Both the position numbers and the translations under genes were made by a program. 64,000 bases of DNA from Halosegnis rubeus (GTDB taxonomy: Archaea; Halobacteriota; Halobacteria; Halobacteriales; Haloarculaceae). Where the stretch lies: positions 139,481 through 203,480 of the forward strand of contig NZ_QJOW01000003.1 in assembly GCF_009184545.1 (NCBI RefSeq), written 5' to 3'. The notes beneath the pieces were generated by a model, which had not been told where the DNA came from, made no database searches, and saw nothing but the letters and a program-made list of their open reading frames with translations. How positions within the stretch are numbered: position 1 is the stretch's first letter; each line of letters begins with the position of its first letter. Positions 16,102 to 23,549 of this stretch are shown piece by piece.

Positions 16102-16407
16102 GCTTGTTAGTAGTTAACACGAGTATATAAACTTGACGAAATGGGGGACGGTGGCACGCACCGGTGTTTTGTTCGATTCGAGAATACCTCGCGCGGAGGC
16201 TGGAATACCGGTGGATATCGGTGGGAACTGTGGACGCTCGGCGAGTCATTCTCGGCTCTGTGTCACAGAGTCGCACAATCGGGCGTGAGCGCACCAAACC
16301 GGGTGCAGCGTTGCTGTCGATGCTGTTGTCGGGAATATAGGCGTATGTACGTCACTTGCTGGCATTGCGGTAAGTTTAACCACATCCAATATGTACAATC
16401 GTTCGAA
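16102..16407 (+). promoter_or_regulatory. Intergenic region with promoter of the ABC importer operon
   Basis: 306 bases without a convincing gene. The open frame continuing upstream of 16408 has no haloarchaeal-like protein sequence. The stretch is lower in GC. TTTAA at 16375-16379 sits about 30 bases before the ATG at 16408 and is the likely TATA box. Upstream, TTAGTAGTTAACACGAG (about 16106-16122) may serve the divergent gene 15943-16101. No riboswitch-like structure was recognised. Confidence 0.5.
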
Positions 16408-18297
16408 ATGGCTGAAGACAGTGAATTCAAGCGCCGCCGGTTCCTGCAAGCGACCGGTGCTGCCGCCCTGACTGCAAGTGTTGCTGGTTGTTCGAGTGAC
16501 GGTGGAGACGCCACGGCCACTGACTCCGGCGACGGCGGAGACGGTAGCGACGGCGGAGACGGTGGCGACGACGGAACGGCCACTCCCGAGTCCTTCGACG
16601 GCCTCGACGCCTACCCGTACTCGGCCAACGAGACCGATGTCCAGAGCGCAATCGAGGTAATGGAGGAGGCCGGCTACGGTCCCGACAACACCTTCGAGCT
16701 CGACTGGCTCCAGTACACGAGCCCGACCTGGCTGGAGATGGCGAACACCATCCGTTCGCGCCTCCAGCAGGCCCACATCGAGATGAACATCAGCGAGGCG
16801 TCCTTCTCGGAGCTGCTCAGCACGACCGAGCAGGGCGACCACGAGGCGTACACGCTCGGCTGGATTGCCGACTACCCGGCACCGCAGAACTTCCTCCAGC
16901 TCATCAACCCACAGAACACCGTGTACGACGCCGAGGGGACGACCCCGAACGGCGCACGCCTGTTCTGGTCCGAGGACGCGATGGTGGACTCGAGCGTCAC
17001 CCAGTACATGGAGGACGGGTACTCCATGATTACGAGCAACCCGGGCACCTCCGACGAGGCACAGCAGGCCCGCGACGACGCCGTCCCAATGATGGAGGAG
17101 GCCCTCTGGGAGTCGGCCGCCCTCATCCCGCTGTACAGCAGCGTCACCGAGTCGATGTGGTACGACTACGTCGACTTCAACCCGGCGGGCGGCATGGGTC
17201 CGTCCCGCGCCAAGACGAACAACTCCGTCAACGCCATCGAGGGCCGCGACCGACTCAGCGGCACGTCGGCTACCCTCAGCACGCTCGACCCCGTCGCTTC
17301 CGGTGACACGGCGAGCGGTGCCAAGATCATGAACATGTTCGATGCACCGCTCAACTACTTCAACGGCGAGGCGCAGGTCAGCAACCTCCTTGTTGAAGAT
17401 TACGAGCTGAGCGACGACCTCACCACGTACACGTTCACGCTGAAGGAAGGTGTGCAGTTCCACGAGGACTACGGCGAAGTCACGGCCGCGGACATGGTCT
17501 ACTCGCTCCGTCGTCTCGCAGAGTCGTCCAACTCCTCGAACAGCTCCTTCCTCACCGGCGACCTCAACGTCGTCCGAGAGGAGAACGACAACGGCGAAGT
17601 CGTGCCGGAGTCGATGGCCATCGAGCAGACCGGCGACTACGAGTTCACGATGGAACTCGAAGAGCCGTTCGCGTTCGCGCTCGAAATCATGGCCTACTCG
17701 GCCTTCTCCGCCGTTCCGGAGGGTATCGTGGGCGACATCGAGGGCTACGAGGGCGAGATGGGATACGAAGAGTTCTCGCTCAACAACCCGATCGGCAGCG
17801 GTCCGTTCCAGTTCGTCGAGTGGAACTCGGGCAACGGTGGCAACTTCACCTACGACACCTTCGACGACTACCACGGCGAGCCGGCCTCCTTCGACGGTAT
17901 CGACCTCCAGATCCTGACGGACACGAACGCCATCTTCAACCGCTTCATCAACGGGAACGCGGACACCGGTGGCGTCCCGACCTCCCAGTACGACCCCGAT
18001 CTCGTCTCCATCGAGGAGACGCAGGGCGCACAGGAGCTCGGTACCTACGGTCCCGTCGAGGAGAACGACGTCACCTACCAGTACGCCCGCACGCCGACCA
18101 TCAACACCTTCTACGTCGGCTTCAACCTCGAGGAGGTTCCCCAGCCGGTTCGTGAGGCGATGGCGTACGTCATCAACCGCGAGCAGTTCGTGCAAGAGGT
18201 CTTCCTCTCGCGCGGTTCCCCGTCTTACCACCTCACCCCGGCTCCGATTTACCCGGGCGGTGGCGAGACGTACCGCAGCCACTGGCAGGGTAACTAA
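16408..18297 (+). CDS. dppA: Peptide-type ABC importer substrate-binding lipoprotein with circularly permuted domain
   Basis: A 629-residue SBP_bac_5 family protein. Start: MAEDSEFKRRRFLQATGAA gives a twin-arginine signal (RRR 9-11) and lipobox ending at Cys28, then a Gly/Asp/Ser linker to about residue 60. The mature part is in the wrong order. Residues about 66-280 are the family's usual C-terminal half: YPYSANETDVQSAIEVMEEA, then YTLGWIADYPAPQNFL, then GGMGPSRAKTNN. Residues about 281-629 are its usual N-terminal half: TLDPVASGDTASG, TFTLKEGVQFHEDYGEVTAA, PIGSGPFQF and VREAMAYVINREQFVQ, ending SHWQGN. Family termini both lie in domain I, so permutation is structurally possible. It heads the importer operon; 211 bases separate it from the first permease gene. 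Confidence 0.9.
   Translation: MAEDSEFKRRRFLQATGAAALTASVAGCSSDGGDATATDSGDGGDGSDGGDGGDDGTATPESFDGLDAYPYSANETDVQSAIEVMEEAGYGPDNTFELDWLQYTSPTWLEMANTIRSRLQQAHIEMNISEASFSELLSTTEQGDHEAYTLGWIADYPAPQNFLQLINPQNTVYDAEGTTPNGARLFWSEDAMVDSSVTQYMEDGYSMITSNPGTSDEAQQARDDAVPMMEEALWESAALIPLYSSVTESMWYDYVDFNPAGGMGPSRAKTNNSVNAIEGRDRLSGTSATLSTLDPVASGDTASGAKIMNMFDAPLNYFNGEAQVSNLLVEDYELSDDLTTYTFTLKEGVQFHEDYGEVTAADMVYSLRRLAESSNSSNSSFLTGDLNVVREENDNGEVVPESMAIEQTGDYEFTMELEEPFAFALEIMAYSAFSAVPEGIVGDIEGYEGEMGYEEFSLNNPIGSGPFQFVEWNSGNGGNFTYDTFDDYHGEPASFDGIDLQILTDTNAIFNRFINGNADTGGVPTSQYDPDLVSIEETQGAQELGTYGPVEENDVTYQYARTPTINTFYVGFNLEEVPQPVREAMAYVINREQFVQEVFLSRGSPSYHLTPAPIYPGGGETYRSHWQGN
16531..16563 (+). repeat. Duplicated 15-mer in the lipoprotein linker
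   Basis: GACGGCGGAGACGGT occurs at 16531-16545 and again at 16549-16563, encoding the Gly/Asp-rich tether that follows the lipidated cysteine. Such linkers expand by slippage. Confidence 0.7.
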
Positions 18298-18508
18298 ACT
18301 CACCCTGTCCCCGTAGTATCGACATATTCAACCATTCGGAATACTCATCCACTCGCAAGCATTGCGTCTAACAGTCACACGATAACCACTCTCCAGATAT
18401 GATACGAAACGAACGACACGCGTCTCCCGCAGGTCCCCGCGCTTCGCGTATACCGGTGGCGAGACATGTAGACCGGTCCCCCAACCAGACGGGCGGTGAC
18501 ACGACAGC

Positions 18509-19612
18509 ATGAACAAGCTGGTGTATCTCGGGAAGCGAATCGCGCTCGCGATACCCGTCGTCCTGTTCGGGCTCACGATGGCGTTTCTCATTCTGTACGC
18601 CGGGCCTCTCGACCCGGTGTACAGTATCCTCGGCCGAAAGGCGAGTGAGGCAGACATCCAGCGATTGCTCGTCGACCTCGGTTATCGGTATCCTAACGGG
18701 CAGGAAGTGCCGCTGTGGGACCAGTACCGCATGGTGATGACCGACCTGTTCACGCTCAACTTCGGACAGTCGTGGGTCGTCCAGCGCGGTCGACCGATCA
18801 TCGACCTCATCGGTGCACGCATGTCGGCGACTATCTGGCTCGGCTGGTGGTCGGTGGTTATCGCACTGTTCGTGGGGATTCCGGTCGGGCTGTTTGCCGG
18901 GCTCCGCGCGAACACGTTCAGCGATTACTTCGCGTCTGCCGGCGGAATTCTCTGGCGTGCGATGCCGAACTTCTGGCTCGCCGTCATCCTCTCCGGCCTG
19001 CTGTCTGCGGGTGGTGCGCTTTCATTCTACCGTGATTGGGGTGCCGACTATGGGCTCGCGACGAAGGTCGTCGGGACGCCACCGGAGGTGAACAACCTCT
19101 TCAACGTCATTCCATTATTCGACGGGATTCCCGTACTTGAGATGCTGTTCCTTCCGATTCCGGAACTGCAGAACATGGCCGTCGCGTTCAAGTGGATTCT
19201 CCCTGGCGCGCTCGTGTTGGGGTCGGCGTCGATGGGGAACGAGGTCCGTATCGCTCGGACCGCCGTTCTGGAAAGTATCAACTCGAAGTACGTCGAGACC
19301 GCACGCGCGAAGGGCGTCTCCGCACGCCGTATCGTGTTCAAGCACGTCGGCCGCAACGCGCTGATTCCGCTGTTGCCGATTATCATGGGCGAGTTCTACC
19401 TGCTCATCGGCGGGTCCGTTCTCGTCGAGGCTATCTTCGGTATCAATGGACTGGGGAGTCTCTATCTCAGAGCCATCTTCCAGACGGATATCCCCGTCAT
19501 CATGACGCTCACGTTCATCTTCACCATCATCCTCGTGGTGTTCAACATCACGCAGGACCTGCTGTACACAATCGTCGACCCGCGTATCTCGCTCGACGAC
19601 GTCGAGGGGTAA
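18509..19612 (+). CDS. dppB: ABC importer permease, DppB type
   Basis: A 367-residue inner subunit of the peptide/opine/nickel-type importer. It opens with the DppB pattern KRIALAIPVVLFGLTMAFLI, then an extracytoplasmic loop, then five further hydrophobic segments. The EAA loop that docks the ATPase is SKYVETARAKGVSARRIVFK with HVGRNALIP following. A family-typical end GINGLGSLYLRAIFQTDIPV is present. It starts at ATG 18509 after 211 lower-GC bases without a gene and is followed seven bases later by the second permease. Confidence 0.93.
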   Translation: MNKLVYLGKRIALAIPVVLFGLTMAFLILYAGPLDPVYSILGRKASEADIQRLLVDLGYRYPNGQEVPLWDQYRMVMTDLFTLNFGQSWVVQRGRPIIDLIGARMSATIWLGWWSVVIALFVGIPVGLFAGLRANTFSDYFASAGGILWRAMPNFWLAVILSGLLSAGGALSFYRDWGADYGLATKVVGTPPEVNNLFNVIPLFDGIPVLEMLFLPIPELQNMAVAFKWILPGALVLGSASMGNEVRIARTAVLESINSKYVETARAKGVSARRIVFKHVGRNALIPLLPIIMGEFYLLIGGSVLVEAIFGINGLGSLYLRAIFQTDIPVIMTLTFIFTIILVVFNITQDLLYTIVDPRISLDDVEG

Positions 19613-19619
19613 CATATTC

Positions 19620-21158
19620 ATGTCAGACACAAACACTCCGAACGACTCATACGACGGCGACCAGTCGTCGCTCACGTCGCGTCTGGCCGCGAATCCGCGG
19701 CCGGCGCTCCGCTGGGCGGCCGTCGCCGCCGTCCTGCTTGTCCTCGAGTTCGGTGCGTTTATCGGCGGCACGCTGACCGTCCTCCACGCGCTGGTACTCG
19801 GCGTTACCGGGCTCATCGCCGCGATGCTCGGTCTCACCATCTCGAAAGGCATCGAGACTAGCATCAACGAAGTCCAGGCGTCGATTCTCTCACAGATCGA
19901 CAGCGTCCGGAGCACCGCAGAGGGAATTCCGACGCTGCTCAGCCGGGAGACGATTCCGAACCAGGGCCACAGGCTCGGTCCCGATGGCCCGTGGGCGGAG
20001 ACGTTTATGGGACTCGAGCCGCGGCTCGCGTGGCTGCTCCGTGTCACGCTCATCGTCGTCTACGCATTCGTCGTCGCCTACTGGCTGTTCCGCGGCTGGG
20101 ACATCTTCCGCATCTACTATCGACAGGCGGACTGGACGCCGACCGACGACATCATCAACCGACTCCGCAGCCACCGCTGGGGTGTGTTCGGTGTCCTCAT
20201 CATCCTCCTGTTTCTCACGATGGCGCTGTTCGGTCCCGCGCTCGGGCCGACAACCGTCGAAGCGAACATCCAGTCGCCGTACGGACACTACGTCGAGTAC
20301 TACTCCAACGAGACCGGCCAAGTCGAGAACGTAACCGTTGGGAACGCCAACTTCAACTCCAAGTCGAAGGGTGCCGGCACGAACGTGGGGCCGATGAGCT
20401 ACGACAGCTTCGACCGGTTCCATCCGTTCGGGACACTCACCAACGGACGTGACCTCTTCACGTTCATGATGGGCGGTGCCCGGACAACGATTACGGTGGT
20501 CGGTATCGCTATCGGAATGAGTGCAGGCATCGCAGCCGCGTTGGGCATGATATCGGCCTTCTACAGCGGTACCGTAGACCTGGGCGTCCTCACAGTCGCT
20601 GACGGTATTACATCCGTTCCACAGCTGCTCTTGCTCATCATGGTGAGTGCAGTGTTCGCCGGCCACTGGATAACGAATGTACTCAACGGCGGGTTCTTAC
20701 TCGCGATACTGTTCGGGCTAACCGGCTGGCCGGGGCTGTGGCGCGCCGTCCGTGGACCGGCCTTACAGGTCGCACAGGAGGAGTGGGTCGACGCCGCAGA
20801 GAGCTTCGGCCAACGGCCAGCGCTTATCATGTGGAAACACATGTTCCCGTACGTGGTCGGTTATCTACTCGTCTACGCGTCGATGTCGGCCGGTGGTATC
20901 ATCATCGCGATGTCGGCGCTCTCGTTCCTCGGGAACGGACTCGGTGTGACCGCACCGACGCCAGCGTGGGGTCGCGCTATCGACCTCGGACAAAACTACG
21001 TCTCCACGCCGTCGTGGCACATCTCCCTAATTCCGGGCCTGATGATCGTCGCCCTCGTCACGGGTGCGAACGCCCTCGGCGACGGACTGCGTGACGCCAT
21101 CGATCCGGAGACCGAGTCTGGGAGTGGTGAACAGACGGCTGCAGGAGGTGGTGCGTGA
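19620..21158 (+). CDS. dppC: ABC importer permease, DppC type, with long N-terminal extension
   Basis: A 512-residue permease, about 200 longer than bacterial DppC (about 300). Two hydrophobic segments near residues 30-70 and one near 135-155 precede the normal DppC start at about residue 180 (NRLRSHRWGVFGVLIILLFL). The core has the usual HPFGTLTNGRDLFTFMMGGA-like region and the EAA loop QEEWVDAAESFGQRPALIMW KHMFP. Haloarchaeal DppC proteins are often extended this way; the role of the extra segments is unknown. The stop overlaps the next ATG by one base. Confidence 0.92.
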   Translation: MSDTNTPNDSYDGDQSSLTSRLAANPRPALRWAAVAAVLLVLEFGAFIGGTLTVLHALVLGVTGLIAAMLGLTISKGIETSINEVQASILSQIDSVRSTAEGIPTLLSRETIPNQGHRLGPDGPWAETFMGLEPRLAWLLRVTLIVVYAFVVAYWLFRGWDIFRIYYRQADWTPTDDIINRLRSHRWGVFGVLIILLFLTMALFGPALGPTTVEANIQSPYGHYVEYYSNETGQVENVTVGNANFNSKSKGAGTNVGPMSYDSFDRFHPFGTLTNGRDLFTFMMGGARTTITVVGIAIGMSAGIAAALGMISAFYSGTVDLGVLTVADGITSVPQLLLLIMVSAVFAGHWITNVLNGGFLLAILFGLTGWPGLWRAVRGPALQVAQEEWVDAAESFGQRPALIMWKHMFPYVVGYLLVYASMSAGGIIIAMSALSFLGNGLGVTAPTPAWGRAIDLGQNYVSTPSWHISLIPGLMIVALVTGANALGDGLRDAIDPETESGSGEQTAAGGGA

Positions 21159-22222
21159 TGGCGGAAGAACCGGTACTGTCCGTCTCCAACCTCCAGACGG
21201 TGTTCCACACCGACAAGGAGACCATCCGCGCCGTCGACGGTATCTCGTTTGACGTACACGAGGGTGAGACCGTCGGCATCGTCGGCGAATCCGGCTCCGG
21301 GAAGTCGGTCACCGCACGCTCCATCATGGGTATCGTCGAAAGCCCCGGCGAGGTTCTCCCCGGGTCGTCCATCAATTTCAACGGTCGGGAGCTAACGGAG
21401 CTGTCGGACACCGAGTACGAACAGCTCCGTGGTAGCGGCATCGGGATGGTGTTCCAGGACCCACAGCAGTCGCTGAATCCGGTCTACACCATCGGTAACC
21501 AGATTAGAGAGGCGCTGCGCATCAATCAGGGACTCCGTGGTGCAGAGGCGCGCGAGGAGGCGATTAACCTGCTTGAGGATGTCGCTATCCCCGACGCTGC
21601 CCGTCGGCTGGACGAGTATCCACACGAGTTCTCCGGCGGAATGCGCCAGCGGGCCGTCATCGCGATGATGCTCGCGTGTGATCCCGAGTTCCTCATCTGT
21701 GACGAGCCGACGACGGCACTCGACGTGACTATACAGGCTCAGATCCTTGAGCTCCTGGACGGGCTACAGGAAGAGCGGAACCTCTCGATTCTGTTTATCA
21801 CTCACGACATGGGTGTCATCGCCGAAATCGCTGACCGCGTCAACGTGATGTACGCCGGCCAGATCATCGAGTCGGCCCCCGTCGAAGACCTGTTTGCGAA
21901 CCCGAAACACCCCTACACCGAGGGACTGTTGGGAGCAATTCCGGGCGAACAGGCCGACGGCGAATCGCTGCGAACCATCGAGGGTGACGTGCCGACACCG
22001 AACGAGGAGGCGACGTACTGTCGGTTCGCGCCCCGGTGTCCAGAGGCGTTCGACGCGTGTGATGCGGTCGCGCCCGCACACGTCAGCGTCGGCGAGGACC
22101 CGGACCACACCGCGGCGTGTCTGTTGTACCCCGAAGAGCAGACCGAGGAGGAGCGGGTCAGCCACCACCGGTCGCTCGGAGCGAAGTCGCGTGAACGACC
22201 CGCAGGTGATGTGAATGAGTAA
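21158..22222 (+). CDS. dppD: ABC importer ATPase, DppD type
   Basis: A 354-residue ATPase. Walker A is GESGSGKS (43-50), the signature is FSGGMRQR, Walker B is LICDEPTTALD and the switch His is in LFITHDMGV. A C-terminal oligopeptide-transporter domain has CRFAPRCPEAFDACD and ends AACLLYPEE; in relatives these cysteines bind an iron-sulfur cluster. GTG at 21155 and ATG at 21158 are adjacent; I chose the ATG. Eight bases overlap the next gene. Confidence 0.94.
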   Translation: MAEEPVLSVSNLQTVFHTDKETIRAVDGISFDVHEGETVGIVGESGSGKSVTARSIMGIVESPGEVLPGSSINFNGRELTELSDTEYEQLRGSGIGMVFQDPQQSLNPVYTIGNQIREALRINQGLRGAEAREEAINLLEDVAIPDAARRLDEYPHEFSGGMRQRAVIAMMLACDPEFLICDEPTTALDVTIQAQILELLDGLQEERNLSILFITHDMGVIAEIADRVNVMYAGQIIESAPVEDLFANPKHPYTEGLLGAIPGEQADGESLRTIEGDVPTPNEEATYCRFAPRCPEAFDACDAVAPAHVSVGEDPDHTAACLLYPEEQTEEERVSHHRSLGAKSRERPAGDVNE

Positions 22223-23549
22223 CGCAATCGAGCGCAAGCAGACGGCAGCCAGCGGCGAGACGCTGGTCGACGTACAGGACCTGAAGAAGTACTACGGCGG
22301 CAACGGCTTCTTCGCACCGCCGCCGGTGAAGGCGGTCGATACGGTCAACTTCGAAATCAAGCGGGGCGAGACGTTCGGGCTTGTCGGCGAGTCCGGCTCC
22401 GGAAAGAGCACGCTCGGTCGCACGCTCGTTCGGCTCGAGCAGGCGACCGACGGGAGCGTCAGCTTCGACGGCACCGACATCACGGAGCTGTCCGGCTCCG
22501 AGTTGAAAAAGTGGCGCAGCAACGCCCAGATGGTGTTCCAGGACCCCGAGTCGAGTCTCAACGACCGGATGACCGTCGGCGAAATCATCCGCGAGCCGCT
22601 TGACGCCCACGGCTGGAAGACCAAGTCCGAACGGCGCGAGCGCGTCACCGAACTGCTCTCGGAGGTCGGGCTCCGCGAAGAACACTACTTCCGGTACCCA
22701 CACCAGTTCTCGGGCGGCCAGCGCCAGCGTATCGGTATCGCCCGCGCGCTCGCGCTCGAACCCGAGTTCATCGTCCTCGACGAGCCGGTGTCCGCCCTCG
22801 ACGTGAGCGTGCAGGCGAAGATCATCACGCTACTCGAGGATCTCCAGGAGGAGTTCGACCTCACCTACCTGTTCATCGCACACGATCTCTCCGTGGTCCG
22901 GCACATCTGCGACCGCGTCGCCGTGATGTATCTCGGCAAGATCATGGAAATCGGCGACACGGAAGAACTGTACGAGGATCCACAGAACCCGTACACGCAG
23001 GCGTTGCTGTCTGCGATTCCGCGCCCCGACCCGACGGTCACCATCGACCGTATCACCCTCCCCGGGACGCCGCCGAGTCCCCGCGACCCACCCCAGGGGT
23101 GTCAGTTCTCGACGCGGTGTCCGGCGAAGATTCGCCCCGAGGCGTACGCCGACGTGCCCGACGAGACCTGGGACGCCGTCGAACAGCTCCGCGAGGTCAT
23201 CCGCGAGCGGTCGCGGATGTCGCTGTCCGCGACCGACCAGATGCGCAAGCGGCTCGGTCGGTTCTCGCGGTTCGACGACATCGACGAGACGGTCGAGGAC
23301 CTCTTCGAGGAGCTGTCGGTTCCACAGGCCGTCCAAGACCACGTCCAGCACGCCGTCGAGCTGGTGAAGGATGGCGAACCGGAGGAGGCCCGCACGTATC
23401 TCCGCGACGAGTTCGGCGGCGTCTGTGACACGACGCGGCCGGACCACCATCAGGTGAGCGCCAGCGGGCGCGAGAGCTACTGTCACCGACACGACGCCGA
23501 GTACGACGACGTGACGGCGGTCCTCTCGAAGTACAGCGACGGTGCGTAA
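22215..23549 (+). CDS. dppF: ABC importer ATPase, DppF type, with C-terminal extension
   Basis: A 444-residue ATPase that pairs with DppD. Walker A is GESGSGKST (58-66), signature FSGGQRQR, Walker B VLDEPVSALD, switch His in LFIAHDLSV. After GCQFSTRCPAKIRPE the C-terminal domain is interrupted by about 100 charged residues (WDAVEQLREVIRERSR, later EARTYLRDEFGGVCDTTRPD) before ending near ESYCHRHDAEYDD. The family's cysteine set is therefore split by an insertion. I believe similar extensions occur in other haloarchaea, but cannot check. Its last eight bases overlap the next gene. Confidence 0.93.
   Translation: MSNAIERKQTAASGETLVDVQDLKKYYGGNGFFAPPPVKAVDTVNFEIKRGETFGLVGESGSGKSTLGRTLVRLEQATDGSVSFDGTDITELSGSELKKWRSNAQMVFQDPESSLNDRMTVGEIIREPLDAHGWKTKSERRERVTELLSEVGLREEHYFRYPHQFSGGQRQRIGIARALALEPEFIVLDEPVSALDVSVQAKIITLLEDLQEEFDLTYLFIAHDLSVVRHICDRVAVMYLGKIMEIGDTEELYEDPQNPYTQALLSAIPRPDPTVTIDRITLPGTPPSPRDPPQGCQFSTRCPAKIRPEAYADVPDETWDAVEQLREVIRERSRMSLSATDQMRKRLGRFSRFDDIDETVEDLFEELSVPQAVQDHVQHAVELVKDGEPEEARTYLRDEFGGVCDTTRPDHHQVSASGRESYCHRHDAEYDDVTAVLSKYSDGA

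Follow-up and report, generated by a model that had tools for sequence, protein, structure and literature searches.

A circularly permuted family-5 substrate-binding protein in a haloarchaeal peptide-type ABC importer operon, and recurrent permutation among its relatives

Within the window, the whole stretch of 64,000 nucleotides from Halosegnis rubeus, one gene encodes a substrate-binding protein (SBP) of family 5 (SBP_bac_5, cluster C) in which the two halves of the canonical chain appear in the wrong order. This raises the question of whether the gene is a working SBP with a rewired chain, an artefact or a remnant, and of how such an order could arise. We find that the protein is a genuine circular permutant. 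We are highly confident that the locus as one whole is best explained as a working permuted importer SBP which most likely arose by duplication in place and which belongs to a recurrent pattern in its family. The coordinates of the gene, its parts and its neighbors are collected in Table 1.

Table 1. Features of the permuted SBP gene and its operon (window positions)
Feature	Position	Strand	Evidence
Circularly permuted family-5 SBP gene, type A, 629 aa	16408..18297	+	ORF translation, Pfam, rotation scan, pairwise matches
Tat lipoprotein signal, residues 1-28 (RRRF...AGC, Cys28)	16408..16491	+	sequence; RR/F/C invariant in 33 relatives
Acidic G/D/S/T linker, residues 29-65, immediately ahead of the new N-terminus	16492..16602	+	sequence; linkers of relatives
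C-terminal block of the canonical order, residues 66-280	16603..17247	+	residues 68-267 match 413-606 of canonical L052
Closing junction, about residues 272-281, old C-terminus joined to old N-terminus without leftover linker	17221..17250	+	sequence comparison, rotation scan
N-terminal block of the canonical order, residues 281-629	17248..18294	+	residues 282-625 match 70-409 of L052
DppB-like permease	18509..19612	+	conserved beside A, B, C and canonical types
DppC-like permease, 512 aa	19620..21158	+	operon comparison
DppD-like ATPase	21155..22222	+	operon comparison
DppF-like ATPase	22215..23549	+	operon comparison

Block order and predicted fold of the window protein

The first-pass annotation had read the protein as SBP_bac_5 halves in swapped order, and this reading is borne out by several comparisons. 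Pfam SBP_bac_5 (PF00496) scores the protein at 199.6 bits against a cut-off of 32.4, with the match split into two stretches, and in the whole-genome search profile positions 239–362 lie upstream and positions 2–260 downstream. Similarly, the N-terminal part of the best-scoring PDB chains matches window residues about 289–622, while their positions about 320–450 match residues about 60–180, and the pairwise matches to the close canonical relative L052 (Table 1) fall in the same exchanged order. The chain ends in ...ETYRSHWQGN, just where canonical relatives run on into YPYGYNET, and the counterpart of that segment, YPYSANET, sits near the start of the protein at residues 69–76, as had first been noticed. 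The whole SBP_bac_5 content is present with near-full-circle coverage in another order: both blocks are kept, their order is swapped and the old termini are joined.

To compare the normal order with re-ordered halves, as the first-pass annotation had proposed, every rotation of the protein was scored against a linear canonical profile. The score rose from 486 to 735 bits with a cut near residue 276, and the canonical control L183 gained nothing against the same profile. With a broader canonical-only profile the window protein gains 150 bits on rotation. Of 12 controls, all but one gain at most 1 bit, and the exception, a divergent sequence, gains 12. The final scan used chained scores and the canonical-only profile, under which canonical L002 gains 0. 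An apparent gain for L002 with a small general profile (162 to 244 bits) was rejected as spurious, HMMER having divided the match into domains, and two sequences that turned out to be permuted (L165 and L199) were taken out of the canonical seeds. A single collinear full-length match to the family was also searched for, and none exists: the NCBIfam equivalogs for DppA (NF043070) and OppA (NF011684) give 68 bits against a cut-off of 1005, with a split match, and 52 bits against 947, respectively, and no solved PDB chain was found with a full-length collinear match to type A, the arrangement of the window protein, or to the type D described below.

The protein carries MAEDSEFKRRRFLQATGAAALTASVAGC, which contains both the twin arginine motif and the lipobox cysteine (Cys28) of a Tat-exported lipoprotein. 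Residues R9, R10, F12 and C28 are invariant across 33 relatives (motif RRRFLQATG...AGC), and the Pfam TAT score of 15.1 lies below that model's own cut-off of 22.7. A signal of this kind followed by an acidic linker at the new start, as originally described, is present in the sequence. On the opposite strand, a 685-aa open frame (window 16246–18303) spans the entire SBP gene; it looks like a codon-usage shadow of the high-G+C sequence and not a gene.

To ask how the rewired chain might fold, residues 62–629 were modeled in native order with AlphaFold2, leaving out the signal and linker and supplementing the alignment with canonical relatives, each half of which was entered as its own row. This modified input raised the pLDDT from 74 to 93.8 and the pTM from 0.69 to 0.89 relative to the 33 permuted sequences alone, and returned one model. 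Model residues 211–567 (protein 272–628) superpose on OppA 1–331 (Z 24.7, rmsd 4.1 over 315 residues) and residues 220–566 on DppA 1–323 (Z 23.7). Sequential aligners superposed only the N-half on OppA without placing the C-half in the same frame, and they yielded no full-length sequential alignment of the model to any solved chain. That both halves close into one fold is consequently a prediction resting on the pTM of 0.89, and in these terms the model supports the preserved fold that the first-pass annotation had expected. Because the superpositions end at OppA 331 and DppA 323, the type-A break falls at about OppA residue 331–334, which we take to be a loop in domain III.

Conservation and operon context

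The window stems from a 12-contig draft assembly, and an assembly or rearrangement artefact could in principle have swapped the halves of a single gene. The first-pass annotation had suggested searching other genomes for the same order, and it is kept in over 30 genomes from about 13 genera, at 45–97% identity. Relatives at 97%, 65% and 45–62% identity share it in independent assemblies, single-contig genomes among them, and this conservation rules out a single-gene artefact or misassembly, the probability of which is now practically nil. Nor is it at all probable that the gene is an inactive remnant left behind by a rearrangement, a reading for which the unusual order is the sole argument: dN/dS between the window gene and its nearest relative (L006, 97% identity) is 0.082, invariant residues are spread over the full length of the 33-member alignment, the operon is conserved and the predicted fold is confident. 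A canonical paralogue (C6), encoded in the same genome, is 38–41% identical to the window protein over the N-half.

The operon itself is intact, as first annotated. In the window and in relatives, the two permeases and two ATPases that characterize a Dpp/Opp-type operon (DppB, C, D and F) lie directly downstream of the SBP gene, and SBP genes of types A, B and C as well as canonical ones precede this same set. Genes of type B' and most of the type-D genes checked precede more distant permease/ATPase sets. Two D-type genes on Haloferax gibbonsii pHG2 (L227 and L230) form an orphan subgroup, with no permease or ATPase genes detected nearby. Judging from sequence, the window protein is likely the membrane-anchored SBP of a peptide-type (Dpp/Opp-like) ABC importer, and its function is likely unchanged ligand capture for that importer; once folded into its two lobes, it would be expected to bind ligand and to dock on DppBC in the manner of its canonical relatives.

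Recurrence and origin of the permutations

The first-pass annotation had described a single permutation. Type A is real, yet the scope was underestimated, since it is one of at least five arrangements that require about nine changes. When start points are read from a doubled profile of the circularised type-A alignment, the window's own family shows four discrete starts, namely the canonical N-terminus (about q276–285), A (q66), B (about q190–204) and C (q395), and each of these four rotations forms one collinear span over nearly the full circle. Other haloarchaeal subfamilies contribute two further types, B' (L018, L019, L130, L165 and L199) and D (L008, L141, L162, L163, L166, L174, L176, L193, L200, L202, L206 and further members), such that haloarchaeal family-5 proteins have at least five distinct break points. 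The rotation gain for type B' is only 8–13 bits, within the noise of one control (12 bits), and the B' call is based on direct pairwise matches. Between L199 and canonical L146 the signals are collinear (6–31 on 8–33), after which residues 30–113 match 463–541 and residues 113–541 match 58–485. Similar pairwise swaps are seen for L050 against canonical L183 and for L008 against canonical L016. Type C is visible independently of the profiles built here as well: by Pfam alone, residues 60–399 of the type-C protein L099 match profile positions 64–361 in two stretches. A reading of L098 as truncated after q401 was rejected; it is a type-A protein with a longer loop.

Two fusions were noted among these loci. 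A 975-aa frame (L089 2729–5653; G008 C1 about 2521992–2523173) appears by eye to combine a B-type permuted SBP with a kinase-like domain and a transmembrane-like stretch, with no Dpp permease detected downstream, and may be a sensor that makes use of the permuted SBP. An 880-aa protein (L192 349–2988; G150 C3) carries a canonical window-family SBP followed by two apparent cupredoxin repeats and a C-terminal anchor.

The number of events was read from trees of the SBPs and of their neighbors. In a tree of 96 family members, type A is one clade (0.993) among canonical proteins with C nested inside it, and the B clade is separate from the B-type protein L050. In a 64-taxon ML tree, A and C are nested among canonical proteins and nine topology changes are required, with bootstraps giving 8 changes in 41 trees, 9 in 933 and 10 in 26. 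The tree of the DppBCDF permeases and ATPases is independent of SBP order, as permutation cannot affect the neighboring genes; there, the B-type L086 (the same gene as L050) lies distant from the B clade of 26 members, C stays inside A, and the type-A L219 falls outside A (0.724), making a single origin of A uncertain in that tree. Haloarchaeal family-5 SBPs have thus been permuted independently about nine times (at least eight; 8–10 over bootstraps) at five or more loop positions, and type C is a second permutation on top of a type-A permutant. One or two ancient permutations followed by reversions and gene transfer could give the same distribution with far fewer events, and the similar break in L130 and the four-member B' clade, only two canonical branches apart, together with the unsettled origin of A in the operon tree, would fit such a history. 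We consider it improbable, as the break points differ among types, a reversion requires the same multi-step process to strike the original termini, the operon genes set two B origins apart and the count stays at 8–10 across bootstraps.

Type A most likely arose in place, within the operon, from a tandem duplication and fusion. The second signal would then have been lost, followed by a deletion from the first linker to the new start and a truncation at the 3′-end, leaving the old termini, neighbors in domain I, joined and the chain opened in the loop at about OppA residue 331–334; we infer this order of steps for type A. Two observations support the route proposed at the outset, a tandem duplication in which the outer halves were lost. 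Type-C proteins (L048/L099) retain HWQGYDGSDTGGSDFEGLSGYPYSPNEN between their blocks, matching the end of the A-type linker of the window protein, ESFDGLDAYPYSANE, and this internal linker is a fossil of the type-A linker, as expected of two fused tandem type-A copies that lost the second signal. In addition, another haloarchaeon (G051) encodes two family-5 copies fused in-frame (1197 aa, 69% identical over 545 aa) behind one Tat-type signal, the very form predicted as the duplication intermediate; it belongs to another family-5 subfamily and shows that the route is possible. This fusion (L249/L255, G051 C1 about 2362605–2365421) ends by eye in a dockerin-like tail. Separately, G247 has a same-strand tandem of canonical family-5 genes (L128/L133), the kind of starting point that permutation by duplication needs. 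The second of the two standard permutation routes (PMC3320104) is fission of a gene into halves that are then re-fused in reverse order, and the type-A junction bears no linker trace. Such an origin is nonetheless unlikely: the type-C internal linker sits at the very point where one tandem copy would adjoin the next, a fused tandem exists, and half-length SBP genes were not noticed in a non-systematic look at the inspected loci.

How common these proteins are was tallied by hand in 21 haloarchaeal genomes. About 37 of 105 family-5 genes are permuted, a rough lower bound given that the tally defaulted to canonical for some divergent genes, and 19 of the 21 genomes hold permuted genes; the sample is non-random, most genomes having been picked for window-family members. 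This amounts to about a third of the family-5 SBPs in the sampled genomes, whose permuted order may have been overlooked behind the label ‘ABC transporter substrate-binding protein’. The type-D order is also found in Alphaproteobacteria (Roseomonas, Nitratireductor, Ketogulonicigenium, Neorhizobium, Microvirga and Maritalea plasmids), where none of the proteins has a lipobox and both Sec-like and Tat-like signals occur.

The permutations could be adaptive, either by moving the tether to the other lobe, an idea voiced for TpMglB-2 (PMC4990184), or by being favored in the Tat export of a pre-folded protein, and the haloarchaeal permutants inspected do carry Tat-type signals, mostly with lipoboxes and linkers. 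The same kind of signal is found on canonical relatives in the same genomes, however, and the bacterial type-D proteins, which lack a lipobox and are partly Sec-like, show that permutation can do without Tat export and without a lipid tether; as a necessary cause both are rejected for type D, and adaptation of this kind seems doubtful overall. We regard it as a tentative possibility, somewhat short of even, that haloarchaeal family-5 SBPs are a hot spot of recurrent, including serial, permutation with a specific cause favoring rewiring. Such a cause may be a mutational route via fused tandems and low-complexity linkers, or selection on the position of the tether or chain ends.

Comparison with known permuted proteins

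Most natural circular permutants are isolated curiosities. In haloarchaeal family-5 SBPs a single fold has undergone about nine changes with several break points and serial permutation, close canonical kin occupy the same operon position and a fused tandem exists; with such matched natural pairs the long-standing question of how circular permutations originate and are tolerated becomes testable. The family is in this sense an experiment of nature on how proteins cope with a rewired chain order. Practically, automated annotation misreads permuted SBPs as split or partial domains, and they are natural templates for designing permuted binding-protein biosensors.

In the open-access full text we found no report of permutation in family-5 SBPs. 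Permuted ABC binding proteins as such are already known, and it is the recurrence in family 5 that is surprising. TpMglB-2 (Tp0684), a circularly permuted glucose-binding lipoprotein described as ‘Type Ic/Cluster Bc’, operates as a binding protein and resembles the window protein in being a lipid-tethered natural permutant among ABC binding proteins (PMC4990184). It differs in having a Type I/Cluster B fold in which strands of the N-lobe were moved, a break other than that of type A and membership of another family by sequence, whereas the only Pfam matches of the window protein are SBP_bac_5 and a weak TAT signal. The canonical cluster C proteins DppA, OppA and AppA (PF00496) are homologous to the window protein over the whole circle and have the same operon partners, and differ from it in that its block order is swapped. 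As for the route, permutation by tandem duplication with documented intermediates is established for DNA methyltransferases, swaposins and other families (PMC3320104). The methyltransferases and swaposins are unrelated to the window protein and are not secreted binding proteins, yet they took the same path by tandem duplication that we propose for the window family.
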